This document shows positions 2,323 through 33,739 of a stretch of 36,242 bases of DNA, one piece after another; the first letter of the stretch is position 1, and each line of letters starts with the position of its first letter. The DNA lies in NCBI GenBank assembly GCA_021782015.1, contig JAJXVS010000004.1, positions 1 to 36,242 on the forward strand, given 5' to 3'. Both the position numbers and the translations under genes were made by a program. The notes under the pieces are model-generated. The model made no database searches. It was not told where the DNA came from and saw only the letters and a program-made list of their open reading frames with translations. Source of the stretch: a bacterium. Lineage in GTDB: Bacteria > Spirochaetota > Spirochaetia > Treponematales > Rectinemataceae.

Positions 2323-3345
2323 ATGTCCAAGGTCGATCTCGATTGGGGCAAACTTTCGTTTTCCTACATAAAAACCGATTATCGCTACATTTCCCATTGG
2401 AAGAACGGGGCGTGGGACGCCGGTTCCCTGGTCACGGAAAATACGATTACCATCGCCGAGGGTTCCACCGCCATTCACTACGGCCAGCAATGCTTCGAGG
2501 GGCTGAAAGCCTATACGCGCGCCGATGGTAAGATTCAGCTCTTTCGCCCCGATCGCAACTCGGCGAGGATGAACGCCACCGCCGACCGCATGGTGATGCC
2601 GCACGTCCCCGAGGCCAAGTTCATCGACGCCTGCATGCAGGTGGTCAAGGCCAACGAGAAATGGGTGCCGCCCTACGGTACGGGCGCAACCCTCTATCTC
2701 AGGCCCTGGCTCATCGGGGTGGGCGACAACATCGGGGTCAAGCCGGCGCCCGAATACCTCTTCGGCGTGTTTTGCATCCCCGTCGGGCCCTATTTCAAGG
2801 AAGGGCTCAAGCCGGTCAACTTCATTGCGAGCGAGTACGATCGAGCGGCACCCCGGGGCACGGGGGCGGCCAAGGTCGGCGGCAATTACGCCGCCAGTCT
2901 CATGCCCCACGAGGAAGCCGCCCACAAGGGCTACGCCGATTGCGTCTACCTCGATCCGGCCACCCACACGAAGATCGAGGAAGTCGGCGCGGCCAATTTT
3001 TTCGGCATCACGAAAACGGGGGCCTTCGTCACACCCCTGTCGCCCTCGATTCTCCCAAGCATTACCAAGTATTCGCTGCTGCAGGTGGCCAAGGATAACT
3101 TCGGCATGAAGACCGAGGAGCGCGACGTCTACATCGATCGCCTCGACGAATTCGCCGAAGCGGGAGCCTGCGGCACAGCGGCCGTCATCACGCCCATCGG
3201 TGGCCTCTTTTATAAGGGCAAGCTCCACGTGTTCCATTCGGAGACGGAAACCGGACCGGTCACCCGCAAGTTATACGATACGCTCGTGGGAATTCAGTAT
3301 GGTGATTTGCCTGACCCGGCGCACTGGATTCGCGTGGTCGAGTAA
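2323..3345 (+). CDS. ilvE: branched-chain amino acid aminotransferase
   Basis: Class IV PLP aminotransferase sequence: HYGQQCFEGLKAY, KVGGNYAASLMPHEEA, EVGAANFFGI, GTAAVITPI; SD AGGAG upstream. Confidence 0.93.
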   Translation: MSKVDLDWGKLSFSYIKTDYRYISHWKNGAWDAGSLVTENTITIAEGSTAIHYGQQCFEGLKAYTRADGKIQLFRPDRNSARMNATADRMVMPHVPEAKFIDACMQVVKANEKWVPPYGTGATLYLRPWLIGVGDNIGVKPAPEYLFGVFCIPVGPYFKEGLKPVNFIASEYDRAAPRGTGAAKVGGNYAASLMPHEEAAHKGYADCVYLDPATHTKIEEVGAANFFGITKTGAFVTPLSPSILPSITKYSLLQVAKDNFGMKTEERDVYIDRLDEFAEAGACGTAAVITPIGGLFYKGKLHVFHSETETGPVTRKLYDTLVGIQYGDLPDPAHWIRVVE

Positions 3346-3401: not shown

Positions 3402-3830
3402 TCAGGCCTGCTTCGCGCAGGCCGGGCAGAGGCCCGTCACGAAGAGCTGGACCCTTTCCACCTGGCTGCCGTCGCCGAGATCCGACACGGCAGGCACTTT
3501 GAGGTCGAACAGGTCGGAGACCTCGCCGCAGGCATGACAGCGGAAGTGGGCGTGGGAACTCGTGTCCGCGTCGTAGCGCACCTCCGAACCGGTGATCTCG
3601 AGGCGCTGCGCCATGCCGAGCCCCACGAACAGATCGAGGGTCGAGTAGACGGTGGTCCGCGATAGTGTGGGAATCTCCGGGGAAAGCACCCGGTGCACCG
3701 CATCGGCGGAGGGATGGGCCTTCGTCGAGGCGAGGGCCTCCCAAATCCGGATTCGCTGTTGTGAAGGTTGTACGCCTTTTGATCTCAAATAATCGACCGT
3801 GTTCACCTTCGTCTCCGATCGCGTTCCCAC
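3402..3830 (-). CDS. perR: Fur-family peroxide regulator PerR
   Basis: Fur fold. RYDADTSSHAHFRCHACGEVSD carries residues equivalent to PerR Asp85/His91/His93/Asp104; HPSADAV supplies the His37 equivalent; CHAC and CPAC form the Zn site. Confidence 0.85.
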   Translation of the reverse strand: MGTRSETKVNTVDYLRSKGVQPSQQRIRIWEALASTKAHPSADAVHRVLSPEIPTLSRTTVYSTLDLFVGLGMAQRLEITGSEVRYDADTSSHAHFRCHACGEVSDLFDLKVPAVSDLGDGSQVERVQLFVTGLCPACAKQA

Positions 3831-14700: not shown

Positions 14701-16010
14701 AAGACAAAGGATCCGTCCGCCCTGGCCTCCCGCTGCGCTCCGCCGTCCACCGACCAGAGCACTGCGCTCGCTCCGTCTTCGTCGGCGATACTGCCATATA
14801 CCCTGTCGCCCGCCTTCGCCGTCCCGCCAGCCTTAGGATACGCGATGCGCACCAGTGGCTTGTCCGCCTGGCGGTCGATCTTGCGGTTCACCACGAAGGT
14901 CGAAATGTTGCCCGCGAAATCCTCGGCGCTCAGCGTGACGAGAAACTGGTCGGCCTTGACCTCGCGCGCATTGAAGGTCTTCTCGAAAAAAGGATCGCCT
15001 TTGCGGAGTTCGATGTCGCCCTTGCCAAGCCCGGGCCCCTCCCAACTCAGGCGCTTGATGCCAACGACGTCCCTCACCGAGCCGGCCACCATGACGCTGC
15101 CGTGCACCGCCCGGGTGGGGAGGGGCCGGACGATCGAAAAGGCCGGCTTGGCATTCGCCACCATGAGAAGATAGGCGGTGCTGCCAAGGGAGCCCACCCC
15201 GTCGTGGCTTCTGAACTGGAGGAGTTCCGGCCCGTCCTTCAGTTTCCTTGAATCGACAACTGTCTGAAAATCCACCTTCGTCGGATTCTTGCCACGCTTG
15301 AGATCGAGCTTCGACCAAAGCTTGCCGCCGTCGACCGACAGCTCAAGGTCGCGGACTCCGTTGGCGTCGCTCACCGTGCCGTCGACCTTCACGGTCCCGG
15401 TCACGAGGGAACCCGGGGCCGGGGTTCTCACATCGACCACGGGCTTGAAATGATCGAGGTCGAAGGCCACCTTGACGGCCGGCCCGACCAGGCCGTTGAT
15501 GTCCGTTCCGCGTACCGAGATCGTTCTTCTGCCGTCGGGTACCAGTTTGGTATTAACTGTGAGCATCCAGAGGTCGGTGCCCCGCGCCTGAACATAGGGA
15601 CCGTCGTCTATCGCAACCTCAACCTTGCGGACCCCATCGTCGTCGGAGCAAATACCGACAATTGTGAGGTCTCCTCCGACCCGCTGGGCCGGCAGGGGAT
15701 TGAGGACGTGCACTATCGGGAGATCGGATTTCGGGTCGATGAAAATGTTGAAAGGGCCGCCCACGGCGATATTGCCTGCCCTGTCCTTGCCTTCGACGAG
15801 AATGTTGTACTTGCCGGTGGGGAAGCCGTCGATCGTGAAGCGCGATTCCCAGTTGGCCGTGCCCACCGCCAACTGCTCGACCGGCTTGGTCTGGGCCATC
15901 GCCGGGGCGGTGAGAAAAAGCGTGACAAGGGCGGCGACGATCGCCCCGCCTTTCCTGTTCGCCGCCTGGGCCGGTCTCTCGTTCGCGCCGTGCATCATCG
16001 TTCGCTCCAT
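8739..16010 (-). CDS. giant secreted Ig-like-repeat protein with C-terminal outer-membrane beta-barrel-like region
   Basis: Signal peptide GGAIVAALVTLFLTAPAMA|Q; many repeats with D.DGV..V..S.DGG.W and D.AGN motifs; last ~180 aa amphipathic, ending ...PSFGLRLGIF. Start may be the ATG at 15998, which has GGAG upstream. Confidence 0.85.
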   Translation of the reverse strand: MERTMMHGANERPAQAANRKGGAIVAALVTLFLTAPAMAQTKPVEQLAVGTANWESRFTIDGFPTGKYNILVEGKDRAGNIAVGGPFNIFIDPKSDLPIVHVLNPLPAQRVGGDLTIVGICSDDDGVRKVEVAIDDGPYVQARGTDLWMLTVNTKLVPDGRRTISVRGTDINGLVGPAVKVAFDLDHFKPVVDVRTPAPGSLVTGTVKVDGTVSDANGVRDLELSVDGGKLWSKLDLKRGKNPTKVDFQTVVDSRKLKDGPELLQFRSHDGVGSLGSTAYLLMVANAKPAFSIVRPLPTRAVHGSVMVAGSVRDVVGIKRLSWEGPGLGKGDIELRKGDPFFEKTFNAREVKADQFLVTLSAEDFAGNISTFVVNRKIDRQADKPLVRIAYPKAGGTAKAGDRVYGSIADEDGASAVLWSVDGGAQREARADGSFVFDLPDLASGKHSLAVVGRDSFGVLGDPAIVVFNFDKGPGTLTIDSLTPGAATPAAAKPGAAKPAAAKPGAATPGPALRDFTQGAVVAVDDGESLVGKVTAPNPLTRAEWRIGEGPSRKLDLVKGAGATDFSWRIPIDPSFPYGFAAITIEIADGFGNSWGGKALLYVTDYASPREDTGFTFDESRAAGGTVTLGRTDPFVGVFWREEIASVRLEPETGLLAPTFDGPAISIAAAGEGRTGLEKVIVTTKKGHEFAAGPWTFVTDTTAPTLAIDSPAQGTLSRDAVDVKGHAADSGGLASLSWRVAPSGPQHELKVEANGDFSFTVNPSDLGGGLADVEVDATDVAGNLGRAYVALGLETTAPKVDFVAPAAGSRVSGTEAVIARLSDPAGIATVEYALDGTSWQPVETQGGWIVTTVNFSAFPKSSWRVTDRAGNVTIAAPTVTIEAGAVRALPADTLTIRPAADEGKIELTGSAGTRKLAALIPTLADQNAADSDSRFGARLLVSGTLSLKGIVSIVGGASAAGGASGAGGAGGAAGSSGIKALSLSLDKGGTWIPIGAVKDQKNALSTMPVTIVLDTAKQLHPGAGRLLFKVEDFAGGTRYGSLDIYVDNAPPTLILAGPAAASTPVTGLVPVVVQASDDSALASLGWSTGQGSMKDLGAASGATWFAVLIDPATALKGAAFQGSLVAKDLAGNTTTLPVKIAYDAVAARPAPTIEFGSDAKFLQAGDRISARAIGPEGPVGLSLEIDGASIASSDAGAVAVALPALSPGTHLLAAVSTDAGGHKSEVKRAILVQGPAPSFGALAIGDAKTKTAFAPGALFTLGAQFFFGGELEAPNGLATLECSIDGKPASAVLGRADAPGKSSAPGQAVAQGGAIPFTLSLGGLPYGKNVITLTTKDMAGLSTSRDFVFVSIVPAKGGVDDAEGLRFADQRIAAAGGEMKALMAPGEDLVGRFNGRAIKQVELVPPTSILAASFAGPIVRLAAKGEGTTPPTKVEVTTIDGDVFDWGPATFFIDATPPVLTLSAPADLDWKGASLRIAGTAESGKEAIVKVEYSFDGSTWVGLAKSVGGAAPAAPATPSPAPAAPAAPATPSPAPAAPAAPTAPLAPTAPLAASWPFDSTVKLEPDDGTVALMLRMEDAAGRSAVLTRVFTKDTVAPIFTQVLPDPDVAVNGLTTFVGEVSDAGRVTTVDFLAAPDAKAEKVDGLRAFGASLDLSTLPDPLPEGAGFRAVDAAGNVAIFRPKLTIDIQADKPVVEINAPSDNEVLRQDFAVSGVAFDDDGVASISYRLDNGAWQNLPLTGMGFSLPIALADTTDNGHSIEIKATDIYGVVGDPVMRRWRISKEEPFALLASPPATEVVRGVIDVSGSASDANDIASMALSFDNGTSWQEPEGTTSWAYRLDTNTLADGPHAVLMRPVDGYDTPGLAAALITVDNTPPVAVLDRPLDGEKVASSLSVSGRVSDNTGLSAARLEIAPVAAGSPPIMKIDLDTSRVQSRSVDISSLPAGDYVVRLIAIDRAGNESLATRDFTAIGKTEGESIEILFPRPGARIDGPFTLGGRLHANGKVESVDILLDGRIVATVHPDAEGIFNYAFKDGLGDAGPPAATPAAASPPPAAPGSPAAAGPPPAAGPRALSVKCSVDGLRDLASPVQGLDWRALGPWVTIDNIQNGTFLSYRPFLRGRAGFKAESPDPADKAALAAFRKTEARRAVTFVEVSLDGGRSWERASGKDSWSYRVETGNYPEGPLFAIARATFGDGSQVSAPAWYRLDTTPPKVDVLAPAAASRQNQVIDVLGTAQDENGMDSVKVILRKGDKSNYELPAFVQGLYLDGHVLGATDWEVGAGLTFFGDNVKLQGEYGQAPTVDATTGLASSFGGAVYGAKLIANLYSLPLASIFGPDWEWLSLSLGLGANFSYFSVVNGDPTRGLMLSSVFGQVEFPKVTLKTMPAFRKYSIYFEYQLWVLSSVVQGGFIPKPSFGLRLGIF
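11345..11490 (-). repeat. in-frame tandem repeats coding Ala/Pro-rich linker (39-bp x2, 18-bp x2)
   Basis: Protein ...TPSPAPAAPAAPA|TPSPAPAAPAAPT...PTAPLA|PTAPLA; matching DNA repeats on the + strand text. Confidence 0.8.
14490..14570 (-). repeat. low-complexity repeat coding TPGAATPAAAKPGAAKPAAAKPGAATPG
   Basis: Repeated GGCTTGGCTGCAGCAGGC / GGCGGCGCC units, in frame within the 2423-aa ORF. Confidence 0.75.
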
Positions 16011-18610: not shown

Positions 18611-19708
18611 TCATCTCTTCTTTGCGAAATTGAAGGCTGCCTGGATCTCCCCCAAGAGGTTGCTGGAGGGAATCGATCCGGGCAGGCGCTCGGTGAGCGG
18701 GAAAAATCGAAGCGCGGCGCGAGCCGCGTCGCGCACGGCCGCGCTGTCCCCGTCAATTTCGGAGGTCGACTGGCTGACGGCCATCCATTTGAGGCGAACA
18801 CCTACCTCGATTTGGAACTCGGGCGAGCAGAGAAGCTTTAACAAAGCTTCCAATCCCTTGGATTTTTTTGCGTCGCCATAGACTTCGAGGAAGAGAGCCT
18901 GGCCGGCCAGGGCCGTCTGCCCCGAATCGTAGCTTCGTCGCCAGGCGGAGAAGCGACGCTGGAGAACTCCCCTCGAGATCTCGAAAGATCTGTAGGTCGT
19001 GCCGAAGACATATGGCGACCCGGCCTTTCGCCAGATGTCCAGATCGCCAGGGGCGAAGTTCCAGGTCGAGGACACCCATGCCGATAAGGTGGTCAGGTTC
19101 GAGACCCGCGACAGCCCCCGCTGCCACGCGGCATTGCTTTGTGAAAACCAACCCTCCAGGTGGGGGGCGGGCGATTGCGGAGAGGATTCGCCGAGGAAGA
19201 AGACGGCCTCGCGATACATCGGCTGGCCTCCGGGCAGGGTCACCCGCCCCGCCCAGCGCTCCTCCCCAAGTTGATTCCAATTAGGAAGGTCTGGTGCTGC
19301 GGCACTGCCCTCGCGATAGTAGGCTTCGACGCCGACCGCATCGAAGAACAGGGGCAGCGCATCCCACGAACCATCCTTGGTCTGACCCAGGGCCGCGAAT
19401 ACGGACAGGGGGGCGTAGGCGGGAGGCAGGACAGCCGCGGGTATCGGGGAAGACCGGGGCGCGGCTTCGGGCAGGTTCCATCCCGGCGTCGAGGTGAGGC
19501 GCGCGACAAGGCCCTTGGCCGGCCAGGGATCGGCGTCGGGGAGGACGACAAGGCCCTCCAGGCCCTTCGCTTGTCGAGCCGCTTGCGCGGCAAGGGCTCC
19601 GACCTCCGCCGCCTCCGGGCTCACGAGGAGGCTGAGACGGGGGGAGCAGGAGGCGAGGAAAGAGAGGGCAATCGCAAGCGTCGCCAGCCCGATACCAGGG
19701 CGAATCAT
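18611..19708 (-). CDS. putative lipoprotein, distantly resembling a periplasmic solute-binding protein
   Basis: Lipobox-like LSFLASC; SBP-like sequence (PLFFDAVGVEAYYREG..., KKSKGLEALLKLLCSPEFQ). Start overlaps the stop of the 4.6k-aa gene by 4 bp. Confidence 0.65.
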   Translation of the reverse strand: MIRPGIGLATLAIALSFLASCSPRLSLLVSPEAAEVGALAAQAARQAKGLEGLVVLPDADPWPAKGLVARLTSTPGWNLPEAAPRSSPIPAAVLPPAYAPLSVFAALGQTKDGSWDALPLFFDAVGVEAYYREGSAAAPDLPNWNQLGEERWAGRVTLPGGQPMYREAVFFLGESSPQSPAPHLEGWFSQSNAAWQRGLSRVSNLTTLSAWVSSTWNFAPGDLDIWRKAGSPYVFGTTYRSFEISRGVLQRRFSAWRRSYDSGQTALAGQALFLEVYGDAKKSKGLEALLKLLCSPEFQIEVGVRLKWMAVSQSTSEIDGDSAAVRDAARAALRFFPLTERLPGSIPSSNLLGEIQAAFNFAKKR

Positions 19709-22700
19709 GGCTGGTACGCGTACTCAAGGCCTGCGTTCGTGGCATAGCCCAACACCGGGGTGAGGCCGTTCGGCGTTCCGAAGTTCTTGTACCCAATGCT
19801 GACAGTAAAGGTCTTCGGGCTATTGGTCGCGGGAACGGTCTGCACCTCCCAGGCTCCCGTATATTGGTCATTCACCGCCCCATTCTGGAATGTAGCGAAA
19901 TTGACCCGGGTGGCTAGCTTCACGCAAAATGATGTGCCGCTATAGGTCCCGGCATAATACGAAATGCTCGGGACATAGTTACCGCCAACCAAAGTCGTGC
20001 CAATTCGAAGGTATTGGCCGACGGAAAGATAGCTATCGACCGTCGCGAGTTGGGGGCTGGTGGATGCATAGCCGGGAAGATATGCGTAACACAGGTCCCC
20101 TGAGGAAGAGCGATAGTAGGCAATATGAACTCCGCCGCCTGCGTCGACCGTGATATCGCAATTCTGCCCTGCGAAACTGCTGTCTATGACGAGAGCATGG
20201 CTCGCCCATTGCCCAGATTGCGCCGCACTGGTGGGAGCGGTGTTATAGCTGTACCAAAGCCTTCGATTCGTCGAGTCGTACCAAACCGCCACAAGGGTAG
20301 AACGGTCAACGGGATTCAGGGCGATCGCGCTATACGCCCCGGAGGTCGCGGCTCCGGCAATCGTAATCGCTCCCGGCTGATCCCAAGGAATGGTGCTACT
20401 CGTGCCTTTGTCTGACAAGGCAGTTCCGCTCGGAATTGTGGAACGTCCATTCACGGTTCCGGTTCGCAGCATTACCTGATTGAGGACTGCATCGTAATAA
20501 CTGAGATAGGAGGTCGCCAGGTTGCCGGCTCCCAAAGCCGCCGCGGGATTGGCCAAGGCCGCCACAATATCGGGATTCTGGAAACGATTCGAATTCGTGT
20601 TTGCCACCGTCCCATCGCTCGACAGGGAAGCAAAGCGCGAGGTGTAGGTTCCCCCGTCATAACCACCTGTATAGCTGCTCGCGCCAGAACCCGGTTGATT
20701 CGAGAAGAAACACCCGCTCGACCAATTCACGATCCTTCCTCCTCCCGCCGTGATATCCCCGCTATTGCCTTCCCCGAAGGTATCCCCCTGCTCATCGTAG
20801 GCGAAGGCAGTGTCGTAATAACGCGTAGGATTGCTCTGGAATTGCTGGGGCGTCTGAGTGCCGGAATCCGTCATGTAGAAATAATTCTCGCTGCTGTCGT
20901 AGGTCCAGCCGATGTATTGGTTCGAGGCGGTCGCGGAATTGACGATACGCATGCTCGGATATCGTATCGAGGCGTCTGTCGAGACCGAGGTGATGCTCCA
21001 CACGGTGAGATTGCGATCGTCGGTCAGAAGATTGTTGTTTACGTTGTTGGGTTCGTCGTTGTAGTAGTAGGGCTGGCCAGCCCCGGTGAGAACATAGGCA
21101 GTGTTAACATTTGAATTATTGGTCGATGAGACTGCCGTTGGCGAACCTGCCGAAACTACCAGCCCGCCCGAAGTCGCCGTCGTACCGATTGAGGCGGTCA
21201 CCTCCGTGGTGGTCTTTCCGGCCACCGCTCCGACAGTAAGCGGAGTCCCGTTCAAGGCGACCGAGGTGGAAATCCCGTTGAAATTGTATCCATCAATTAT
21301 GATCGTCTCGTTCCTTTGCACCGGGTAGTAGCCCAGGGCGCTCCGGTTCGTCACGGACGGAACCGAACTGTAGGCGCTCGACAAAGCCGTAGTCACCTTT
21401 GAAATGTACGGCACCGCATCCACCAACGACTGCGCCGTGGCCGAGTTCTGCGCCGGGATCGGGTTGGCGTTGTAGGCCTTGAAGGTCACCGCGAGGTTTT
21501 TCCCGGTGACCGTGGACAGGGTAGAGCTGTCCCAGGTGAAGGTCCAGTTAACCTGTTGCCCGGAGAGGCCGAGGACCTGGTGGCTCGTGTCGATCGCGAC
21601 GCTCCAGCCCGTGCCTGAGAGTGGCGCCCAAGTGCCCCCCGAATATGTGGCAATACTGAACTCCAAGGAGCCGTTGTACCCAGGAATCGTCGCGGTGATC
21701 TTTGTCATGGCCTGGTCGTTCCATGCGCTGCCGAGGAAGACCACCTGGCCCGAGATAGACGCCGCGCCGGAGGTGTAGGGGCTCGTGTAATCGATGTGTC
21801 CGCCGCTCGGGCCGATGTTCTGGCCGTAGGTCGAAACCGGTCCGGTCTGGAAGGCTTTGCCCGTCGTATAGGGGTTGGTCGTCGGCAGAAGGTACTGCGT
21901 GCCGAAGGGCGCCACGCCGATGGCCGGGGTTCCGTGGTCCGCGTTCTGGATGTTCATGTTGATCGCAACACTGTACGACTGAGGAATCGTGACCGTGGCG
22001 TCGGTGACGGTCAGGACGAAGCTCGCCCCGTTGGAGGTCGAAGTGTCGGCTATTGCCGGCGAAACCGTGGTCGGATTGAAGGTCACCGTCGCGCCGTTGC
22101 TGCTGAGGCCCGTCACCGTTCCCTGCGACCAATAGTTGACGCCCCCGCAGGTCAGCTTGTAGCTCAAGGCGCCGTTCGGAGTGGTGGTCCCGTTGCCGTA
22201 GACCGAGCTGACATTGAAGGAGAGGGTGTTCCCCTCGGCGATGAAGCCGGTGTTTGGAAGAGAGGCTGCGGTGCAGGATTGGGTAACAGCCGTGCCGCCG
22301 ACGCTCGTTCCCAGCGTCACGCTGCCGAATTTCGGGCCGTTGTTCTGCACGAAAATCCGATAGGTGTAATGCGTCGCATTTCCCGCGATATCGAAGACCG
22401 TGTAGGCGAGGGTGTAGGGACCGTCGGCCAATTTGGTGGTGTCGAGCTGAATGCCCCAGGTCGTACTGCTGCCGCTCAACCCCATCATCTCAGTTACGCC
22501 CGTGATGCCTGAACCTACGTAGGCGCCGCTCGTCATCGTTGCGATGTCGACATAAAAGCCGCCAACAGTCGTCGACGGCCAGGTTTGTGTGCGTCCCTGG
22601 TAATCAATATAGGTATAGGTACTTGTCGGAATCGAAGACCCTCCCGCAAGCGGCACGGCGTTCCCCGAACCATCGAGGAGATAGACGTAGATATCCTTGA

Positions 22701-25700
22701 TTCCCGATACGGTCCCGGAGGTTGCCGAAATATCGGTCGCGGAACTCGATATCGTCTGGGCCGCGCCGGTGAGTACTCCGTAGACGTTCGAGGAACTGTC
22801 GGTGACAGTACCAAGCCCCGTCGGTGTGCCGGCCAAAGGCGCGAAATTATCCACGCTCACACCGGCGGGACTGGTCGTGACCTGGGCCGTAGGCGTGGTG
22901 AGATCGGCTGCCTGGAGATTGAACCCCAGGGTGCCGGAAAAATAGGCGCCGGTCGTGAGGCTCGGATACACCGTGGATGAATTGATGGTAATTGCGATCG
23001 AGTACTGGAACTTTCCGCTTGCGTCGCTCTCGATGGCTTGCGCCCCGGTCGGCACGCTGCCGGCGGATGATACGGTGAACACCGTGCCCACGACCGGGGT
23101 GATCGTGCTTCCAAGCCCGAGGGCAGCCCAAGGATTGGTCCCCGGCGTGGTATTCACGCCGGGAGCGACAATGAGAAGCTTGTAAGATTGGCCAGCCGCA
23201 TAAGTAACGGCGGCTCCGGAGACGAGCTGCCCCAGGGCGGCGATCGAGTAGGTATAGCCATTGCCCGTCGTGCCACTCGTGGAAAACGGGATGGCTGTCA
23301 CCGTTCCGCTCGCAGTCGTGACGGCGTAAAGGCTGCTCGTGCCGCTGAAAGGTCCCGTATCGACGAGACTGAGATTCGATAGGCCGACAGGGGTGCTCGC
23401 CGTTCCCGACAACGTGAAGGTGCCCCGGGCGTCCATCGATTGCGTATAGGACAGGGCGCTGCCGCCCTGGGGAGTTATCGTTGCAATTGTTACAGTCGGA
23501 AAGGTATTGTTGAAGGTCATCGTGAGGGGGCTCGCGAGGTAACCGGTGAAATTGCCCCGCGGTCCGCCGAAGGAGGTCGCGCTCCACGCCCTCCCCGTGA
23601 CGGAGATGGTTTGAGATGACCGGCCCGGCAGGGGATAGACGTTGCCCACGTTAATGTCATAATACCAAGAAACACTTGTGCCAGAGGTCATCAGCGTTAC
23701 CGGGGCCCACTGATCGACCGCGTAAGTCACCCCGGTACCGGAGGTGAAGCTGACTGCCGAGCCTCCGGCAGTCGCGGCAACCTGGAATGATGTCGTGGTC
23801 GAGGTCGCCCCGACGACATAGTAGGCCTTGCCCGCCGTCGCGCCGCCGGGAAGGGTCGGGATCTGCGCCACGCTCTTGATGTAGACCACCGCGTTTGCGG
23901 GCAGTGGGCTTGCGAGGGCGGAAATCAGCGTGAAGGTGGCGGAACTCGTCAGCACGCTCGTCGGGATCGAAGTCGGAGGCGTCGAGCCATTCGTCGGATC
24001 CACGTAGACTTCGGCGCCATAGACGCCGACCGGCTGGGTCGCCGTGCCGTAAATGCGCTGCTGGCCGCCGAAGGTCTGCGCGTTCGCGGGCGAACTGATG
24101 CTTATCGTGGGCGTATTCGCGTTGGAGTTATAAACGAAGTAGTCTGTCGCCTGGACTTGATTGCCCGCGTTGTCGACGGCCTGAAAATGGATCGGGATCA
24201 GCCAGTAGTCGAGCGAAAGCAGTGTCTGGCCGTTCAGGTCGCACGGATATGCGTTCGTCGTGTTCGCATAGCCGCTGATGTCGCCCAGGGTCAGCACCCA
24301 ATTCGAGGCCGAGGCGCCAGCCTGGTAGGTTCCCGTCTTTCCTATATAGTATTTAATATTCTGGCTCACGCCGCTGCCCGAATCGACGGTGGTGCCGGCG
24401 ATGGAGACCAGCCCCTGAAGAGGACTGCCTGAGGCCCCGACGGCAATCGTGCCGAGGGTGGGGGAGTTCGCGGCCGAAATCGAGGTCGTGGAGGGGCTGT
24501 TCATCGAGATGACGGGCGCTTGGTTGTCGAGACTGTAGCTCCTGCTGATGACGCTCGTCTTGCCGTTCGCGGAAACGACCTGCGCATAGACGGTGAAGGC
24601 GCCATTGCCGACGCCGCCAAGAGATATGCCGGGCAGCAGCCAACCCAGGTTCAGCGAGGGACTATAGACTGTGGCCGCAGCAGCGGCGCTGAAATTGAGG
24701 ATGGTACCTCCGCCCGCTGCCGTGGACAGAACGAAACTCGACCCCGAAACACTTTGTACGTAGTAGGGCGTTCCAACCCCTATGGCGGGCGTAGCCGATG
24801 GCGGAGTCCCGGTGAAATAAACCACATCGCCGTTTGAGAAGAGGGGCGAAGTGCTGGAAATCCCTGTTCCTCCCGCGACGGAGAGGGCCGGACTAGGAGG
24901 GATCGAGCCTGAGCCGAAATTCGTTCCCGCCTTGGCGACCAAGAGACCGGAGCCCGCCCCGGTGAGCGTCACACCCGAGAGAGTGAACTCGTCCACGCCC
25001 GAAGTCGCGGATGAGGAGGCAAGGCTCGCCACCGCGTAGGTCGAGGTGGAGGACAAAAAGCCGCCACCGGAAAGGGTCGGCATCACCGATCCGGCGACAT
25101 AGACCAAATCACCGACGGCAAAACCGTGGGGCAGGCTGGTCTGGAAGGTCCCGGTGGCCGGATTGACGCCGATGACGGAAAAGGCCGGAAGCGCGTTCGA
25201 GGCGCCGAAGGAAGGCGAGGAACCGCTCGTCGCGAGGACGCTCACGCCCGTCACGTTCGCACTATCCTGCGCCGTGCCGGTCAGGGTGAAAGATGCGCTG
25301 ACCCAACTGCCCAGTGCCGGCGAGGCGAGGGAGCCGGATGGCGACGCGTTCGAGATGAAGAACTGCACCTGTGCAGGGGATGCAGTCGTGTTCGGGCCGA
25401 CCGCGACATCGGTGGCGCTGATCGCCACCCGGTATTTCCCGTCGGGAAGGGCGAGCGTCGACAAAGGAATAGACCAATTATAATTAAGTGGATTGCCGGC
25501 GACGACTGTCGGTCCGGAGGATGTCATCGTGTTCCACACCTGGCTCGCGGGATTGTAGACGCTGAGCGTCCAGGAATAGGAGGCGATGCCCGAGGCGTCG
25601 CTCAGAGTTCCGGAGAGGCTTGGCGTCGCAGAGGTCGAAACCACGGTCGGATACCCCGGACCCGAGGTGGCGATGTTGCCGTAGGAGATGCCAGGAGCCA

Positions 25701-28700
25701 TCGTGTCCTTGACGAAGGTTCTCGGCGCCGTCGTCACCCTGCCGGCGATATCGGTCGCCGTCAGGGTGAGCGTGTGCGTGCCTTCCGACAGACCCGCCCA
25801 ATTCCATGAAGGATAGGTCCAGGCCCCAGCGCTCGCGAAGACATCGACGGGAGTATTCGTATCGAGTTGGATCGTCGCCGCCGTCAAGTTGGCGTCGCTC
25901 GCCGCTCCGGTCGGGGCACCGATGTCGGTCGACGCGATCTCGCCGGCAACGGGAATCGTGATCGTCGCGCTCGGCGCCGCGGTATCGATGTAGAATTCGC
26001 AGACACGCGCGGCCATGACATTGGGAACCGGCGAGGCGCGATCCTGGGCGGTGAGGGTGAGGCGATAGTGGCCGTCCGCGTAGCCGGTCAGATCGACGGT
26101 CCAGGGAAAATTGGTTGAATTGGCGGTTGTTCCAAGGCTCGTGACCGCCTGTTTGGAAACCCATGCCCCGCCCGTGTACTGATCGATGGCGTAGCTGGCC
26201 GAGGCGACTCCGGTCGCGTCCGAGACCGTCCCCGATACTTTGGTGGCGGTCTGGAGGTACACGGTCCAGGGCGCGGCGATCGCCAGATTCGCGAAGGCCG
26301 CCGAGGGCGCCACTGTGTCTTTAATGAAGGCGAAGCTCGTGTCGAAGGTCTTCCCCGCCTTGTCGATCGCGCGGGCGTAGAGGGTATGCGCCCCTTCGGG
26401 AATGGCCGCGAAGGTGGAGGGAGCCCCCGAAAGGCCGTTGAAGAAGCTGGCGGGAGCGGCTCCGAGATCGAAGGACCAGGCCGTCGTTTTCGTCAAATCT
26501 ATCGCAACTGTTCCGGCATGCGAGGCGCTGAACGCGGGATCGTCAATGGCGAGAAGCACGGACGCGATGCCGTTTGTCGCCGTCGCCACACTCGCGTCGG
26601 GCGGATCGGTCGCGAGTCCCGAGGCCGCGAAGGACGCGCTGAATATCCCCGAAGCAGCCGTGGTCGAGAAATCCAGCGTGGGCAGGCCCTGGTCGATCGT
26701 GACACGCGAGGCGATGGCCGCGCTCACATTGCCCGCCAGATCGGTGGCCCGCGCGAGGAGAAGATAGCTTCCTTCGCTCAGCGTAGTCGAATTGAGAGTG
26801 GTGTTCCATGTCGAAGCGCCGTAGGTCGCGGCGGTCCAAGCTCCGGCCTTGGCCGCGAAAAAGGCAGTCGCGCCGGCACCGGGAGTCAGCACAGCGCCCC
26901 CGTTCGTAGCGGAAATTTCGAAGCTCGTAGCGGTGAGCCCCGTCGCACTCACCCAATAGGGAACATTCGCAGAGATGCCGGAAGGCAGGCTGCCGCCGGA
27001 ATACGGAGAAAAATAGACAAGGTCGCCTGCCGACAACCCATGGGCGGTCGCTGCGGTGAAGTTCGAGGTCGAGAGGGAAAGCGAGATGCCGCGGGCGATT
27101 TGCCAATCTACGCTCGCGACGCCGGCCGGAGTGCCTCCGCCGCCCAAATCCGTTGCGCCGCCGCCGATGGCAACCATGCTGCCCGAAATCGCCCCTCCGC
27201 CCGCGGGCATGGTTATCGTCGGCGTGGGAGGGGTTCGGTCGACGAGGAAGGAAAAGGTCTGCGTTCCCACTCTCTGTCCCGTGCTCAGAGCCTCGACCGT
27301 CAGCGTGTGCGCTCCTTCCGTCATCGTGGCAGCGGCCACAGAGATCGCGTTGAGACCGGCGGTCGAGAAGCTGAAAGTACCGGGGACGACGCCGCTCATG
27401 GCGGTATAGGAACCCGAATCCAGCTTGTATTGGACGACCGAAAGGTTGTTGGAGGAAGCGCTTCCCGACAGGCTGAAACTCGAATTCACCGAAGTGGCCG
27501 GCGCCGTCGACAGGAGGCTGGAAACGACCGGATTATTCCTGTCGAGGCGGAACCAGACAGTCGCTGAGCTGCCGATGTTCGGCGTCGCGAGTGTGTCGGA
27601 GGCACTCAGCGTTATGCGATAGAGTCCGTCCGTGGTGAAGGGCGAAACGGAGAGATCCTTCGAGAAGGTGACGCTGAGCGGTGTCGAACCGGCGGTCGAG
27701 AGGGCCGTCGAAGCCTGGGCCGTCGTCCAGGTGCTGCCGTTGTCGGCCGAGAACTCCACCACGGACTGCACGGCACCGACTCCGGTTGAATCAGTTATAG
27801 TGCCTATGATTTTTGGCGAACTGTCAACCAGGGACAGCGCCGTCGAGGCCGTGTTCTTGGTTGGGTCGATATTGCCAAAGGTCACGACGGGTGGCTGCGT
27901 GTCGACCGCAACGGTCCTCGTGATCGACTTCACGTTGCCCGCCAGGTCCCTGGCCGTAAATAGATAGGAATGAGTACCATCGGCGGGCAACGAGGAGACG
28001 GGATAGGTCCACGAGCCTGAACCGAAGGTCAGGGCCGTCGGCGGACTGGCTCCATCGACGCTCACCGTGAGGCTGGCGAGTCCGCTCGCGGCGTCGGAGA
28101 CATTTCCCGCGAGGGTGAAGACCGAATTCACCGTCGAAGGCACGCTGTCCGTAGATGACAGGCTCGGCGCGGTCTTGTCGAACCCGAAATCCGTCTTCGC
28201 GGATAGGGCCTCGGCCGCTGTCGTCCAGTTGCCGTCGTTGTCGACGGCCTTGACCCACAGCGTCTTCGTTCCCTCCATCGTCAGGCTCAGGCTAGCCCCG
28301 AAGCTTACCGTCCCCGTCGCCTTCGTCCACAAGGATCCAGTAGCCGTCGGATCATCAGTACTATGATCGGTTGGCGAACTCGCCAGGTACAGCCCATCCA
28401 CCAGCACGTACACCGACTTGACCCCGGACCCCGAACCATCGTTGGCAACCCCCGTCACGCCCAGCGAGGAGCTGGCAACCCATGTCATCGGCGTCGTAGT
28501 TGCAGGTGATGTGATCGTCAGCTGTGGCGACATCGTGTCAACTGTCATGGGAAACGGACCGCTCTGCGTCATCTTCCCCGCCGCGTCCGTCGCCGTGAAG
28601 GTAAAGGAGTAAATCCCGTCGTTTGTATGCGTGGCCGCGTCAATCCCGCCCGCGAAGGGCGTCCAGCCCCACGCGTTGCCCGGCGTTGCGTGGACGCTAT

Positions 28701-31700
28701 CCGTCACCTTGATCGGCGCCGTCGTCGCGGCTCCTCCGTTCTTCGAATAGCTCACCGACAGCGATCCCGATGTAGCCAACAGGTACGAATCCCAAACCGT
28801 CCCCGCGATCCCCACGAACGATGAAGCCGTCGCGGCCGTAACCGTGGTGGGTGGAGCCGTCACCGCAAGGTTCGGCGGACTGTAGTCGACCCCGAAGTTG
28901 ACCGCCGCGTTCGTCACAACGTTCCCCGCCGCGTCGGTCGCCCGCACCATCACCCCGTGGGGTCCTTCCGCCATCCCCGTCATCGTGGCCGTCCAGGTCC
29001 CCGCAACGTTGGTGCCCGACGTATCCGTCCAGGCTGCCGCGTTCCAGGTGCTTCCCCCATCCAGGCTGAACTGCACGCTGGCCACGCCCGAAGCCCCCGC
29101 GTTCGGGTCCGTTGCGCTTCCCCCGATCGTGTAGGCGCTCGACGAGATCCACGCCGGCAGGGCATTCATGCTCACCGTCGGCGCAGTTGTGTCGATCGTA
29201 TAAGTTCGGCTGACGGTGCTCGTTTTGCCGGCGGCGTCCATCGCCGTCAGCAAATAGGTATAGGTTCCGTCCACGACACCACCGAGGGGCAAAGCCACCG
29301 AGGTGTAGCCGGCGGACTTCGCCCCGGAGAGAACCACCGTGGGAGTAAAGCCCACAACCTGCGCCGTTCCTCCATTTTTGCTTTCTGTAATGCCGAGCGA
29401 AGCGATGGCGTTGCCGTCCGCCACCGTGCCCGACAGTGCGAAACTTGCCTTGGTGAAGTTCGTCGCCGCATGAATTTCGGCGAGGACCGGAGGCGCCTGG
29501 TCCACGCCGAAATCCCTTGTCTTCGCCGTCTCGACGTTGCCCACCGCATCCGTCGCCGCCACGTACAACGTGAACTCGCCCTCGCCGATCCCGCCCATCC
29601 CGCTCAGCGTCACCGTCCCGTTCCAGTTCGTCGTGCCCCCGGCCTGCGTCCAGCCCGTCTTCGAGAAGGCCGGCGCCGCGCTCCCCTTCGTCACAATTGT
29701 GTAGTATACCCCCGTTACCCCGGTCGCTCCGCTCCCCGCGTCCGCCGAGGTCCCATTGATCGCCGCCGTCGTCCCCGACAGCCAATACGCCGCGTTCGCA
29801 CCAGTCAATGCCGCCGTCGGCGTCGCGATGCCGCTCACCGGCGCCGTCGTGTCGATCGTCACCGTCCGCGTCACGCTCGTCGTCTTCCCCGCGATGTCCC
29901 TCGCCGTGAACACGAAACCATGCACACCGTCCGCCAGCCCTCCGCCTCCCACCGCCACAGCCAGCGTCCACGATCCCGCCGTTCCACCGGCCGTGTACGG
30001 AGCGCTCGTCATCGCCAATACGTCCTGCGCCGCGCCTCCGTCCACCGACACCGTCAGCGAATGCGCCCCGGCAAGGGCGTCCGTATCGCTCGCCGTCCCC
30101 GCGAAATGTATCGCCCCATTCGTGCTCATCGCATAACTCGCCGGGTTCGTGCCCCCGCCTACCCCGGTCTCCTGCATCACAGGCGGATTCAAATCGTAGA
30201 AGAATCCGATCGTCTGGCTCGCCTGGTTCCCCAGCTTGTCCGTCGACCGCACCTTCAGCGTCTTCGCTCCCTCCGTCGTCCCCAGACTCACCGCGGCGCT
30301 CCAGGAGGTCCCGCTCACGCTCACATCGTGCCCCGATCCGCTCGCCGTCCCGATCCAGCTCACTCCTCCGTCCAGGCTGTACTCAACCGCATTCGCCGCG
30401 GCCAATCCAACCCCTCCCGTGTCGGTCGAGGTCCCCTGGATCGTGTAGCTCGAATTGGCGGCAGATTCGTTCACCACCGGAGCCGTCACCACCAGCGCCG
30501 GCGGCGTCGTGTCGATCTGCACCTGCCGCGTCACCGTCGCCGTCTTTCCCGCAATGTCCGTCAAGGTGAAACTAAAGACATAAATACCATCATTCGTGTG
30601 TCCGATCGCGTCGACTCCGGCGGGAAAGGGTGTCCAGGACCAGACGTTCCCCGGTGCGGCGTGGCTGGAGTCCGTCAGGTTGATTGTCGCACCCGTCGGC
30701 GTCCCTCCGTTTCTCGTGTAGGAGACCGCCAGCGACGAGGAGGTCGCCAGCGCGTTCGAGTCCCAGGCGGTTCCCGCAAAGCCCGGAAACCCGTTCGTCC
30801 CCGAAGCCGCATAGACCGAAGGATCGATCGCCGGCGTTCCCACCCCGAGATTCGGCGGATTGAAATCCACACCGAAGGTCCTTTGCGAAAGAGTCGTAGA
30901 ATTGCCGGCGGCGTCCACAAGCTTGACGACGACGGTATGAAGGCCCTCCGACAGGCCTTTCAGCGTGGCAGACCATGTACCACTTAGGTTCTTGCCACCG
31001 GAGGTATCGGTCCAGTCGGCGTTCGCCCAGGCTCCCCCATCGAGCTGATACGTCACGGAGGCGAGCCCCGACGCGCTCGCGCTGCTCCCGTCGCTGGCGG
31101 TTCCCCCTATCGTGTACTCACCGACCCCGGTCCAGGTCGTTGCCGCCGGAGGCGCCAAAACGGTGCCCGTGGGCGGCGTCTTGTCGATCATGACAATTCG
31201 TTGTAATTGCGCGGTCTTGCCGGCGACATCGGTCGCTGTGACGGTATAGGTGTATACCCCGTCATTCGCCCCGACTGTCGGCAACTGCTGTGTCTGCCAG
31301 GTCTCATGCCTGCCTGCGACGTCGCCGGATGCGGCAACGACCGAGCGGGTAACCGTCGCGTTGACGGCGGCCGCGGAACCAACCTGTTCGGTGACGGCGA
31401 GGGATGCAATTGCATTCGTATCCGCGACGCTTCCGCCGAGCGTAAAGGTCGAGGTGCTCGCCGAGGTCGCGGAATGCGACTCCGTCACCGTGGGCGGATT
31501 TTGATCCACGCCGAAATCCCTCGTTTTCGCCGTCTCGACGTTGCCCACCGCGTCCAGGCCCGCCACGCAAAGGGTGAATTGCCCTTCGCCGAGGCCGCCC
31601 GCTCCGCTGAGCTTGAGCGTGCCGCTCCAGTTGAGGGTGCCGCCAGCTGCCACCCAGACGCCGTTCGAGGAAGAGAATGCCGGCGTCGCGCTCCCCTTGG

Positions 31701-33531
31701 GGACGACTGCATAATAAATGCCCGCGATCCCGCTGCCCGCATCGGAAGAAGTGCCGCCGATGCCAGCCGTCGGCCCCGACAGCCAAAAGGCGGAATCCAG
31801 GAGCGAAAGGACGGGCGGCGTCACGATGACGCTCGCCGGTGCCGTCGTATCGATTTGCACCGTTCGGGAAACCGTCGACACCTTGTCGGCAAAGTCGGTG
31901 ACGGTCAATGTGAGTACATAGGTCCCGTCGCCCAAAGATCCGGGAAGAGTGTAACTCCAAGTTCCTTTTGTCTGGTCCCAGGCGAACCCATTCGGCGTTG
32001 CCGTCGAGGCCGGTGACGCCGCTATGGGCGAGGCCCCGTCCTTCGAATAGGTGAGAACCGCGCTCTTCGCCTTCCGGCCCGCGGTGAGCTTGGCATCGTC
32101 CGCTATCCCTGCGAAGCTGACATCCCTGTTCGACTGGATGAGCGAGCTGCCGTAGTTCGTCTCTGTCGCTCTCGGCGGCGCGAGATCGATCGTGACGGTG
32201 GCGCCTACCAGCCTCGTTTCGTTCGCGACCGTGTTCCCCGCCGGGGCCTTGGCCCTGTGATCGTTTGTCGCCGAGAAGCCGAGGACGAAATCCCCGTCCT
32301 GGTCAGAGGGGAAGCTGAGCCGATAGGCCGCGGAAATGACATAGGTCTTACCATCCGGCGCCACCCTTGTCTTCGGCGCAATCGTGGATACCGGCAGAAG
32401 CCAGCCTTTCGCCCGCGCGCTCTCCGGTGTGCCCATGGTTCCATCCGGAAGCTTGGGAGTGATGCTCACGTCGACATCGAGATTGCTCGCTGTCGTCCAC
32501 GTGTACGGCGAGCCATCGGTAGTCGCCAACCCGTTCACATCTTCGACGACCAGAGGGATGGTCACTCCCGGATTGAGAGTGTAGATCATCGTTCCGTTGG
32601 GCCAGAGGCCGGCCTTGAGATCGAGATTGAGGTTGTTTCCATTATCGGAATTGAACGTGGGTTTTCCGGCATCCTGGTCGATGACAACGCCGTAGAGGTT
32701 GGTGGCCGAATCCTTGGGATTCATTTCAAAGGTCGTCGAATTGCCGCCCCTGTCGCTGTCCGAATAGGCGCTGTCCGTGGCCGTGAATGCGAGATCCACC
32801 CGCCCTCCCGCGGTGGCGAAAATCTTCGTGGTATCAAGATTGAGCGACCAGGCGCTGGTGCCGCTCGCGAGAATGGTCGTGGAACTTCCGCGATTCCCCT
32901 TGTCGTCATAAGGCGTATAAGTAAGCGAAACCTGCTTGAGCCCGACATCGAAGGCGGTCCCGCTGAAGGGAACGATGCCGCTCAACGAAAGATGATCGGA
33001 ACTGTCCGAAGCGGCCATCAAGGCAGAAGGGTCGGGATAGCTCAGGGCGAGCGTTGGCGCATGCTCGTCGAACACGAGCTTGAGGGGGGGAATGGTCCTC
33101 GTGGTCTTGGGCGGGTCGGCTATATCGGTCACGGTTACCACGATGGAAACCGGCACCTCAGCCGTGGCGGCGGAGGGGACAAGGGCGGGCACATCGAGGG
33201 GAGCGGTCCAGAGGCCTGTCTGGGAGTCGAAACTCGCCTGGATGGCCTGCCCGATCGGCGCTTGGGTCTGATCGTTGGTCAGCCCGAGGACGACGGACTT
33301 GACGCCCGTATCGTCCGCCGCCTTCCCCTTAATCGTAATTGTGCCTTTTACGTAGTCGCCGCTCGTCGGCGACAGGATGCTCACGCTCGGCGGCTCGATG
33401 TCTATCTTCGCCCCCAGGCCGGCTGAGAAAGCCTTGCAGGTCGTCAGGGAAAGCGTAAGGACGATGGCGAGCCCGAACAAGAAAACCAGGCTCGCGGACT
33501 GAACGCGACGCCTCCCGGACATATCATCCAT
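19705..33531 (-). CDS. giant (~4608 aa) putative surface lipoprotein: Ig-like repeats, inserted modules, TIG domain, propeller-like C-terminus
   Basis: ATG at 33531 follows GGAGGG; N-terminus MDDMSGRRRVQSASLVFLFGLAIVLTLSLTTC|K is lipobox-like; dozens of Ig-like repeats with DTTAP linkers and D.AGN motifs. Confidence 0.85.
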   Translation of the reverse strand: MDDMSGRRRVQSASLVFLFGLAIVLTLSLTTCKAFSAGLGAKIDIEPPSVSILSPTSGDYVKGTITIKGKAADDTGVKSVVLGLTNDQTQAPIGQAIQASFDSQTGLWTAPLDVPALVPSAATAEVPVSIVVTVTDIADPPKTTRTIPPLKLVFDEHAPTLALSYPDPSALMAASDSSDHLSLSGIVPFSGTAFDVGLKQVSLTYTPYDDKGNRGSSTTILASGTSAWSLNLDTTKIFATAGGRVDLAFTATDSAYSDSDRGGNSTTFEMNPKDSATNLYGVVIDQDAGKPTFNSDNGNNLNLDLKAGLWPNGTMIYTLNPGVTIPLVVEDVNGLATTDGSPYTWTTASNLDVDVSITPKLPDGTMGTPESARAKGWLLPVSTIAPKTRVAPDGKTYVISAAYRLSFPSDQDGDFVLGFSATNDHRAKAPAGNTVANETRLVGATVTIDLAPPRATETNYGSSLIQSNRDVSFAGIADDAKLTAGRKAKSAVLTYSKDGASPIAASPASTATPNGFAWDQTKGTWSYTLPGSLGDGTYVLTLTVTDFADKVSTVSRTVQIDTTAPASVIVTPPVLSLLDSAFWLSGPTAGIGGTSSDAGSGIAGIYYAVVPKGSATPAFSSSNGVWVAAGGTLNWSGTLKLSGAGGLGEGQFTLCVAGLDAVGNVETAKTRDFGVDQNPPTVTESHSATSASTSTFTLGGSVADTNAIASLAVTEQVGSAAAVNATVTRSVVAASGDVAGRHETWQTQQLPTVGANDGVYTYTVTATDVAGKTAQLQRIVMIDKTPPTGTVLAPPAATTWTGVGEYTIGGTASDGSSASASGLASVTYQLDGGAWANADWTDTSGGKNLSGTWSATLKGLSEGLHTVVVKLVDAAGNSTTLSQRTFGVDFNPPNLGVGTPAIDPSVYAASGTNGFPGFAGTAWDSNALATSSSLAVSYTRNGGTPTGATINLTDSSHAAPGNVWSWTPFPAGVDAIGHTNDGIYVFSFTLTDIAGKTATVTRQVQIDTTPPALVVTAPVVNESAANSSYTIQGTSTDTGGVGLAAANAVEYSLDGGVSWIGTASGSGHDVSVSGTSWSAAVSLGTTEGAKTLKVRSTDKLGNQASQTIGFFYDLNPPVMQETGVGGGTNPASYAMSTNGAIHFAGTASDTDALAGAHSLTVSVDGGAAQDVLAMTSAPYTAGGTAGSWTLAVAVGGGGLADGVHGFVFTARDIAGKTTSVTRTVTIDTTAPVSGIATPTAALTGANAAYWLSGTTAAINGTSADAGSGATGVTGVYYTIVTKGSAAPAFSKTGWTQAGGTTNWNGTVTLSGMGGIGEGEFTLYVAATDAVGNVETAKTRDFGVDQAPPVLAEIHAATNFTKASFALSGTVADGNAIASLGITESKNGGTAQVVGFTPTVVLSGAKSAGYTSVALPLGGVVDGTYTYLLTAMDAAGKTSTVSRTYTIDTTAPTVSMNALPAWISSSAYTIGGSATDPNAGASGVASVQFSLDGGSTWNAAAWTDTSGTNVAGTWTATMTGMAEGPHGVMVRATDAAGNVVTNAAVNFGVDYSPPNLAVTAPPTTVTAATASSFVGIAGTVWDSYLLATSGSLSVSYSKNGGAATTAPIKVTDSVHATPGNAWGWTPFAGGIDAATHTNDGIYSFTFTATDAAGKMTQSGPFPMTVDTMSPQLTITSPATTTPMTWVASSSLGVTGVANDGSGSGVKSVYVLVDGLYLASSPTDHSTDDPTATGSLWTKATGTVSFGASLSLTMEGTKTLWVKAVDNDGNWTTAAEALSAKTDFGFDKTAPSLSSTDSVPSTVNSVFTLAGNVSDAASGLASLTVSVDGASPPTALTFGSGSWTYPVSSLPADGTHSYLFTARDLAGNVKSITRTVAVDTQPPVVTFGNIDPTKNTASTALSLVDSSPKIIGTITDSTGVGAVQSVVEFSADNGSTWTTAQASTALSTAGSTPLSVTFSKDLSVSPFTTDGLYRITLSASDTLATPNIGSSATVWFRLDRNNPVVSSLLSTAPATSVNSSFSLSGSASSNNLSVVQYKLDSGSYTAMSGVVPGTFSFSTAGLNAISVAAATMTEGAHTLTVEALSTGQRVGTQTFSFLVDRTPPTPTITMPAGGGAISGSMVAIGGGATDLGGGGTPAGVASVDWQIARGISLSLSTSNFTAATAHGLSAGDLVYFSPYSGGSLPSGISANVPYWVSATGLTATSFEISATNGGAVLTPGAGATAFFAAKAGAWTAATYGASTWNTTLNSTTLSEGSYLLLARATDLAGNVSAAIASRVTIDQGLPTLDFSTTAASGIFSASFAASGLATDPPDASVATATNGIASVLLAIDDPAFSASHAGTVAIDLTKTTAWSFDLGAAPASFFNGLSGAPSTFAAIPEGAHTLYARAIDKAGKTFDTSFAFIKDTVAPSAAFANLAIAAPWTVYLQTATKVSGTVSDATGVASASYAIDQYTGGAWVSKQAVTSLGTTANSTNFPWTVDLTGYADGHYRLTLTAQDRASPVPNVMAARVCEFYIDTAAPSATITIPVAGEIASTDIGAPTGAASDANLTAATIQLDTNTPVDVFASAGAWTYPSWNWAGLSEGTHTLTLTATDIAGRVTTAPRTFVKDTMAPGISYGNIATSGPGYPTVVSTSATPSLSGTLSDASGIASYSWTLSVYNPASQVWNTMTSSGPTVVAGNPLNYNWSIPLSTLALPDGKYRVAISATDVAVGPNTTASPAQVQFFISNASPSGSLASPALGSWVSASFTLTGTAQDSANVTGVSVLATSGSSPSFGASNALPAFSVIGVNPATGTFQTSLPHGFAVGDLVYVAGSVMPTLSGGGFLSSTSTYAVASLASSSATSGVDEFTLSGVTLTGAGSGLLVAKAGTNFGSGSIPPSPALSVAGGTGISSTSPLFSNGDVVYFTGTPPSATPAIGVGTPYYVQSVSGSSFVLSTAAGGGTILNFSAAAAATVYSPSLNLGWLLPGISLGGVGNGAFTVYAQVVSANGKTSVISRSYSLDNQAPVISMNSPSTTSISAANSPTLGTIAVGASGSPLQGLVSIAGTTVDSGSGVSQNIKYYIGKTGTYQAGASASNWVLTLGDISGYANTTNAYPCDLNGQTLLSLDYWLIPIHFQAVDNAGNQVQATDYFVYNSNANTPTISISSPANAQTFGGQQRIYGTATQPVGVYGAEVYVDPTNGSTPPTSIPTSVLTSSATFTLISALASPLPANAVVYIKSVAQIPTLPGGATAGKAYYVVGATSTTTSFQVAATAGGSAVSFTSGTGVTYAVDQWAPVTLMTSGTSVSWYYDINVGNVYPLPGRSSQTISVTGRAWSATSFGGPRGNFTGYLASPLTMTFNNTFPTVTIATITPQGGSALSYTQSMDARGTFTLSGTASTPVGLSNLSLVDTGPFSGTSSLYAVTTASGTVTAIPFSTSGTTGNGYTYSIAALGQLVSGAAVTYAAGQSYKLLIVAPGVNTTPGTNPWAALGLGSTITPVVGTVFTVSSAGSVPTGAQAIESDASGKFQYSIAITINSSTVYPSLTTGAYFSGTLGFNLQAADLTTPTAQVTTSPAGVSVDNFAPLAGTPTGLGTVTDSSSNVYGVLTGAAQTISSSATDISATSGTVSGIKDIYVYLLDGSGNAVPLAGGSSIPTSTYTYIDYQGRTQTWPSTTVGGFYVDIATMTSGAYVGSGITGVTEMMGLSGSSTTWGIQLDTTKLADGPYTLAYTVFDIAGNATHYTYRIFVQNNGPKFGSVTLGTSVGGTAVTQSCTAASLPNTGFIAEGNTLSFNVSSVYGNGTTTPNGALSYKLTCGGVNYWSQGTVTGLSSNGATVTFNPTTVSPAIADTSTSNGASFVLTVTDATVTIPQSYSVAINMNIQNADHGTPAIGVAPFGTQYLLPTTNPYTTGKAFQTGPVSTYGQNIGPSGGHIDYTSPYTSGAASISGQVVFLGSAWNDQAMTKITATIPGYNGSLEFSIATYSGGTWAPLSGTGWSVAIDTSHQVLGLSGQQVNWTFTWDSSTLSTVTGKNLAVTFKAYNANPIPAQNSATAQSLVDAVPYISKVTTALSSAYSSVPSVTNRSALGYYPVQRNETIIIDGYNFNGISTSVALNGTPLTVGAVAGKTTTEVTASIGTTATSGGLVVSAGSPTAVSSTNNSNVNTAYVLTGAGQPYYYNDEPNNVNNNLLTDDRNLTVWSITSVSTDASIRYPSMRIVNSATASNQYIGWTYDSSENYFYMTDSGTQTPQQFQSNPTRYYDTAFAYDEQGDTFGEGNSGDITAGGGRIVNWSSGCFFSNQPGSGASSYTGGYDGGTYTSRFASLSSDGTVANTNSNRFQNPDIVAALANPAAALGAGNLATSYLSYYDAVLNQVMLRTGTVNGRSTIPSGTALSDKGTSSTIPWDQPGAITIAGAATSGAYSAIALNPVDRSTLVAVWYDSTNRRLWYSYNTAPTSAAQSGQWASHALVIDSSFAGQNCDITVDAGGGVHIAYYRSSSGDLCYAYLPGYASTSPQLATVDSYLSVGQYLRIGTTLVGGNYVPSISYYAGTYSGTSFCVKLATRVNFATFQNGAVNDQYTGAWEVQTVPATNSPKTFTVSIGYKNFGTPNGLTPVLGYATNAGLEYAYQP
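28530..31870 (-). repeat. higher-order protein/DNA repeat with ~2004-bp period
   Basis: CCACGCCGAAATCCCT.GT.TTCGCCGTCTCGACGTTGCCCACCGC at ~29502 and ~31506 with matching flanking domains in the same order. Confidence 0.8.
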
Positions 33532-33739
33532 ACACCCTCCAAGGCATGCCGTACGCAGAGGGGACAATTCCCCACAACAATTTCGGCTTTTTGGAATAAG
33601 ACTTTAGAGAGTGATGAAGGAAGAAGGGCCCCCGCTTCCTTTTGGCAAGGCTCGATGCCCTCGCCATGGCAACCTGACTCTGGTTCAGTCTCTTCGAATG
33701 CTACTTGCACGATCCGTGCCATCCTGATTTCATGATCCC

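Follow-up and report, generated by a model that had tools for sequence, protein, structure and literature searches.

We analysed a stretch of 36,242 nucleotides (contig JAJXVS010000004.1 of assembly GCA_021782015.1; Rectinemataceae, Spirochaetota; hereafter the window), which encodes a giant protein of 4620 amino acids (aa) with immunoglobulin (Ig)-like repeats. Probably this giant is a surface protein, and putatively a lipoprotein, in which small, beta-rich modules of phage-virion type are set in exposed loops, and these modules would have entered from phages. Two types were distinguished: module A (about 65 aa; pattern HGLxxGDxVxF...YYVxxx...FxxSATxGGxA) and module B (about 48 aa; pattern GxxYxIxxxGTTDFTAIGAxSNTVGxxFxATGxGxGTGTA). 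Both are stock building blocks of the virion proteins of tailed phages. Module A is homologous to modules of viral structural proteins, and the same holds for B as it occurs in relatives of the giant. Neither module is named by Pfam.

Identification of the modules in the giant protein

The initial annotation had marked five segments of the giant as non-Ig, four of them with a common pattern and the fifth resembling another phage-type module. Each of the five peptides that had been quoted was found, all in the one open reading frame (ORF), at positions that had been given accurately to within some tens of bases (Table 1). An iterated profile of module A finds exactly the four similar segments (A1-A4), and has no further match elsewhere in the 4620 aa. 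The profile was seeded with six modules, namely A1 and A3 of the window and four from two orthologues, and was then widened with viral copies; because the seed included A1 and A3, A2 and A4 count as independent detections. The profile is common to phage tail, capsid and tail-fibre proteins. Taken alone, A1 matches phrog_9370 ('tail fiber protein', E 2.6e-4), and it shares 47% identity with a module of a viral tail fibre J. A Pfam search with two A sequences (E up to 1) returned no family, including E1_FCCH (PF16190).

The fifth segment is indeed a different module, B, in an eroded copy. By itself this copy scores 4.5 bits against the B profile, which is not significant, and identification by profile alone was therefore rejected. 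It was accepted because B is unmistakable at the same site in two orthologues from other genera of the same family, G008 and G015 (E 1e-17 and 2e-19).

Table 1. Features of the giant protein in the window
Feature	Position	Strand	Residues (aa)	Basis or remark
Giant Ig-repeat surface protein	19705..33567	minus	4620, as listed from TTG	ORF and translation
N-terminal half of Ig domain split by A1	27088..27240	minus		Rejoins with C-terminal half on excision
Module A1	26866-27063	minus	2169-2234	Profile i-E 1.8e-17
C-terminal half of Ig domain split by A1	26689..26844	minus		Same excision test
Module A2	24940-25149	minus	2807-2876	Profile i-E 1.6e-4; probable duplicate of extended A3
Module A3	24676-24867	minus	2901-2964	Profile i-E 5.8e-9; aligned orthologous modules
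Module A4	23731-23931	minus	3213-3279	Profile i-E 4.4e-12; aligned orthologous modules
Module B, eroded copy	23032-23214	minus	about 3452-3512	Position; orthologues carry clear B there
Empty loop (TAPTSAAQSGQW)	20206..20241	minus		Homologues compared at loop

Occurrence of the modules in phages and other genomes

Among cultured phages, module A was found in putative and minor tail proteins of Rhizobium and Microbacterium phages. Its carriers in IMG/VR comprise a group of central tail fibre J proteins (the L082 group; phrog_31, E 6e-218), SU10-type major capsid proteins of about 400 aa that align over the 292-aa profile and have some 110 extra residues, one Phage_capsid protein and one T4 gp15-like sheath stabiliser. 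As had been supposed, the segments are of phage-structural type and are not Ig loops, and their homologues are not confined to non-phage Ig proteins. In seven IMG/VR major capsid proteins (L091, L192, L193, L194, L196-L198; SU10_MCP was tested in L091 and L193) the module lies inside the capsid protein as an extra domain. Four viral proteins of about 2700 aa (L200-L202, L206) contain 7-11 diverged A modules, with eleven copies in one of them.

For module B, viral contigs gave 516 confirmed matches and 257 Gb of genomes gave 11, a contrast that is to be read qualitatively, as IMG/VR and the genome collections differ in size and sampling and the scans need exact peptide seeds. Of the 11 genomic matches four are spirochaete giants and several others are phage-tail-like by sequence, which L178 and L184 are not; plasmids searched for B yielded none. 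The carriers of B include phrog_3287 virion structural proteins, and A and B occur together in five viral proteins (L164, L094, L206, L117, L173), as they do in the spirochaete giants. L178, from a verrucomicrobial metagenome-assembled genome, is an open frame of 3261 aa with three B modules and possibly a parallel case in another phylum. A search of the literature for the B motif gave no match, which is weak evidence of absence since motif strings are seldom printed in text.

Within the order to which the window belongs, A matches in relatives are confined to ORFs of at least 2204 aa and B matches to ORFs of at least 935 aa, most of the latter exceeding 2000 aa. In the wider phylum a few A matches fall in shorter ORFs (319-744 aa) that may belong to phages. 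Six distant Spirochaetota (G131, G143, G184, G210, G219 and G253, family f37) have A in ORFs that are 1000-3000 aa long, and some of these genomes contain several genes of this kind.

Nesting in Ig domains and predicted structure

One insert had been proposed to interrupt an Ig domain (DWQIARGIS...GAWTAATYG), and excision of A1 bears this out: the Big_13 match of the flanks rises from 28.7 bits (positions 51-102) to 34.7 bits (33-102), and that of Big_7 from 9.2 to 20.6 bits, with nearly the whole profile covered. The flanks are therefore one Ig domain, split by A1. The arrangement in the window (VDWQIARG ... TWNTTLNSTTLSEGSYLLLARATDLAGN) is comparable to that of phage J, in which module A follows a strand sYEVkykkg and precedes the closing half WFETSLFDVGTYVVMVKSVDA. 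Two more A copies sit at the equivalent position of other Ig repeats in the giant of G017, which belongs to the same genus as G008. The idea that the modules always use the same Ig loop was nevertheless rejected, as the loops differ between insertions.

Independent folding, which had been suggested as a check, was confidently predicted for the modules themselves: AlphaFold2 gave pLDDT values of about 80-95 over most of A1 and of 95-98 for B as found in a related giant. The Ig flanks were poorly modelled, since Ig domains lacking an insert became aligned with the module itself and had to be excluded, and structure prediction was dropped as a way to establish nesting. Foldseek linked the A model to viral models of tail fibres and an FN3 phage protein with probability 1.00. 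A tail fibre of the spirochaete phage LE3 of Leptospira (BFVD A0A343LE39) also matches the A model (E 3.2e-3, probability 1.00) and has a similar module. Against the PDB, the best hits of the A model (range E 5e-3 to 8e-3) were phi92 endosialidase (E 4.6e-3) and a tail tube protein. The likeness of A to phi92 endosialidase, and to the E1 FCCH beta-barrel (UBA1, E 0.064), is a weak one of fold that is not significant by sequence. Comparison of the A sequence with solved structures brought up neocarzinostatin/macromomycin (E 0.003-0.01) and tail protein gp15 (E 0.0075), which were judged too weak; for B, neither fold nor sequence found anything among solved structures (PDB).

Inheritance and gain of modules among relatives

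A3, A4 and B of the window giant are also present in the orthologues G008 and G015, and giants of families f4, f5 and f6 have B in the same surroundings, so that the B site is old. As judged from these alignments, A3, A4 and the B site are inherited. Where the window giant has A2 and A3, both orthologues have one module, and the leader sequences of A2 and A3 resemble each other by eye; the pair therefore looks like an internal tandem duplication. The Ig domain that bears A1 and the next Ig domain are both absent from G008 and G015, hence A1 was gained or lost together with its domain, and an empty site for A1 itself was not found in this comparison.

The clearest gain was found outside the positions that had been annotated, in a conserved C-terminal loop at LWYSYNTAPTSAAQSGQWASHALVID (the empty loop of Table 1). 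It is module-free in the window and in most homologues compared, holds one B in G008, and holds seven tandem B in G017. The seven modules of G017 are diverged and occupy aa 4587-4966 of an ORF of 5186 aa (L042, on contig C44). The loop B of G008 is 61% identical to a viral B (score 148), compared with 55% (127) for the best-scoring spirochaete B; a separate entry fits this difference, which is too weak a contrast to prove it.

Origin of the modules and rival explanations

We propose that the modules entered the lineage of the giants from phage genes, possibly by illegitimate or short-homology recombination, that they would have been tolerated since loops of beta-sandwich domains accept insertions, and that duplication and recombination may later have carried them further, both within single giants and from one giant to another. 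By analogy, they could serve as accessory patches on the surface of a long filament, adding or altering binding to external surfaces or glycans; alternatively they might provide bulk or protease resistance, as they perhaps do on the outside of virions. Several observations weigh against entry from phages or against the nested arrangement. Trees of 49-62 alignable columns left most forks unresolved and gave no guide to the direction of transfer, and a single clade of spirochaete modules was not rejected (approximately unbiased test, p 0.66 for B and 0.17 for A). In GC content the inserts do not differ from the gene, so there is no sign of recent entry into the genome. To these are to be added the qualitative nature of the B contrast, the score of the window's B copy, the low pLDDT of the Ig flanks, by which nesting comes to rest on the profiles, and the fact that elsewhere A and B occupy other loops, some of them outside Ig domains. 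The module exchange that was originally envisaged stands in so far as the modules are of phage type and at least A1 is nested in an Ig domain, in an arrangement comparable to that of phage J; it is not supported as a recent exchange of the whole set into this lipoprotein, given the inherited A3, A4 and B site, the apparent A2/A3 duplication and the equal GC.

The same evidence leaves some room for an old shared pool of domains, or for passage from bacterial surface proteins to phages, which would merely have spread the modules more widely. This we regard as rather unlikely, although a serious contender: A3, A4 and the B site have a long history in spirochaetes, B is present in the 3261-aa verrucomicrobial protein, large ORFs of distant Spirochaetota contain A, and single spirochaete clades are not rejected by the tree test, while the strong enrichment of B in viruses, the spread of A and B across unrelated classes of virion proteins and, as a weak contrast, the nearness of the lineage-specific B of G008 to viral B argue for phages as the source. 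It is also conceivable, if again on the improbable side, that the inserts are inert and that loops merely tolerate spreading modules without a function being conferred. The variable copy number (0, 1, 7), the erosion of the window's B and the variable choice of loop would agree with this, whereas the conservation of A3 and A4 across genera, and of the B site across families, argues against it. Very little speaks for ordinary Ig loops or a chance likeness of Gly/Ser/Thr-rich beta sequence: the composition is of low complexity, Pfam is silent on both modules and the window's B is insignificant alone, but the profile matches are specific and the Ig match improves on excision, A and a relative's B are confidently predicted to fold autonomously, Foldseek ties the A model to viral proteins, and homologues differ by presence or absence of a module. 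Least probable of all is the reading of the giant as a prophage tail-fibre gene; the giant does carry phage-type modules, yet a search of PHROGs with the whole protein gave zero matches, its start is lipoprotein-like, its neighbours are housekeeping genes and homologous giants are encoded by many relatives, and identity with a phage tail protein was accordingly rejected.

Comparison with known systems and implications

That phages and bacteria exchange Ig domains has long been suggested, and Ig-like domains are reportedly shared between them (Fraser et al. 2006, J Mol Biol 359:496). Such Ig domains are likewise promiscuous beta domains of virion proteins with relatives on bacterial surfaces; the units exchanged here differ in being small modules that are not of Ig type, and in at least one case the module lies within an Ig domain. 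We thus rate the case as one of domain exchange between phages and bacterial surfaces in which the exchanged unit sits in the loops of Ig repeats and is not the Ig domain itself. Tail fibre J of the L082 group has module A likewise before the last strands of a beta-sandwich domain, after an sYEVkykkg-like strand, but is a phage tail tip protein, unlike the giant. Receptor-binding and tail proteins of phages show domain mosaicism, with fragments shuffled among tail fibres, tail spikes and other virion proteins (PMC10684548); that work deals with phages, whereas the same kind of unit is found here in chromosomal giant proteins. The Lig proteins of Leptospira are long spirochaete surface proteins with repeats of Big_2 Ig domains, a family that also occurs in phage tail proteins; they and other spirochaete or fibrillar adhesins resemble the giant in their long Ig repeats, which are Big_2 in Lig and Big_13 in the giant (PMC7821625).

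In the present case two small module types that recur in virion proteins, and that Pfam does not name, are located in bacterial giants. The loop with empty, single and sevenfold states makes adhesin-like diversity by loop grafting directly testable. Tentatively, and with less than even confidence, we suggest that the spirochaete giants are active acceptors: phage modules would enter permissive loops repeatedly and multiply in place (0, 1 and 7 at one loop), with phage genes as a reservoir of domains, and this could possibly alter encounters with phages that bear the same modules. As a caution, short phage-structural matches in giant surface ORFs need not indicate a prophage.

The giant protein and its surroundings

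Pfam recovered Big_13 (PF19077) in 18 stretches of the giant (E 7.7e-67; 222.6 bits versus a curated cut-off of 27), with multiple domains above that cut-off, and no phage family in the whole protein. The probable start is an ATG at aa 13, followed by a putative signal peptide with a lipobox-like LTTC (Cys44; VLTLSLTTC, read by eye), from which the giant appears to be a putative surface lipoprotein. A first scan of genome contigs with the long protein as query detected no relative. The neighbouring genes are chromosomal in character (SPFH, SDR, class IV aminotransferase, histidine kinase, CBS, EarP and EF-P), and no phage head, tail or packaging genes were seen in the window. A second Ig giant, without A or B matches, of 2423 aa and with Big_7 repeats, is encoded two to three genes away (8739-16010, minus strand).

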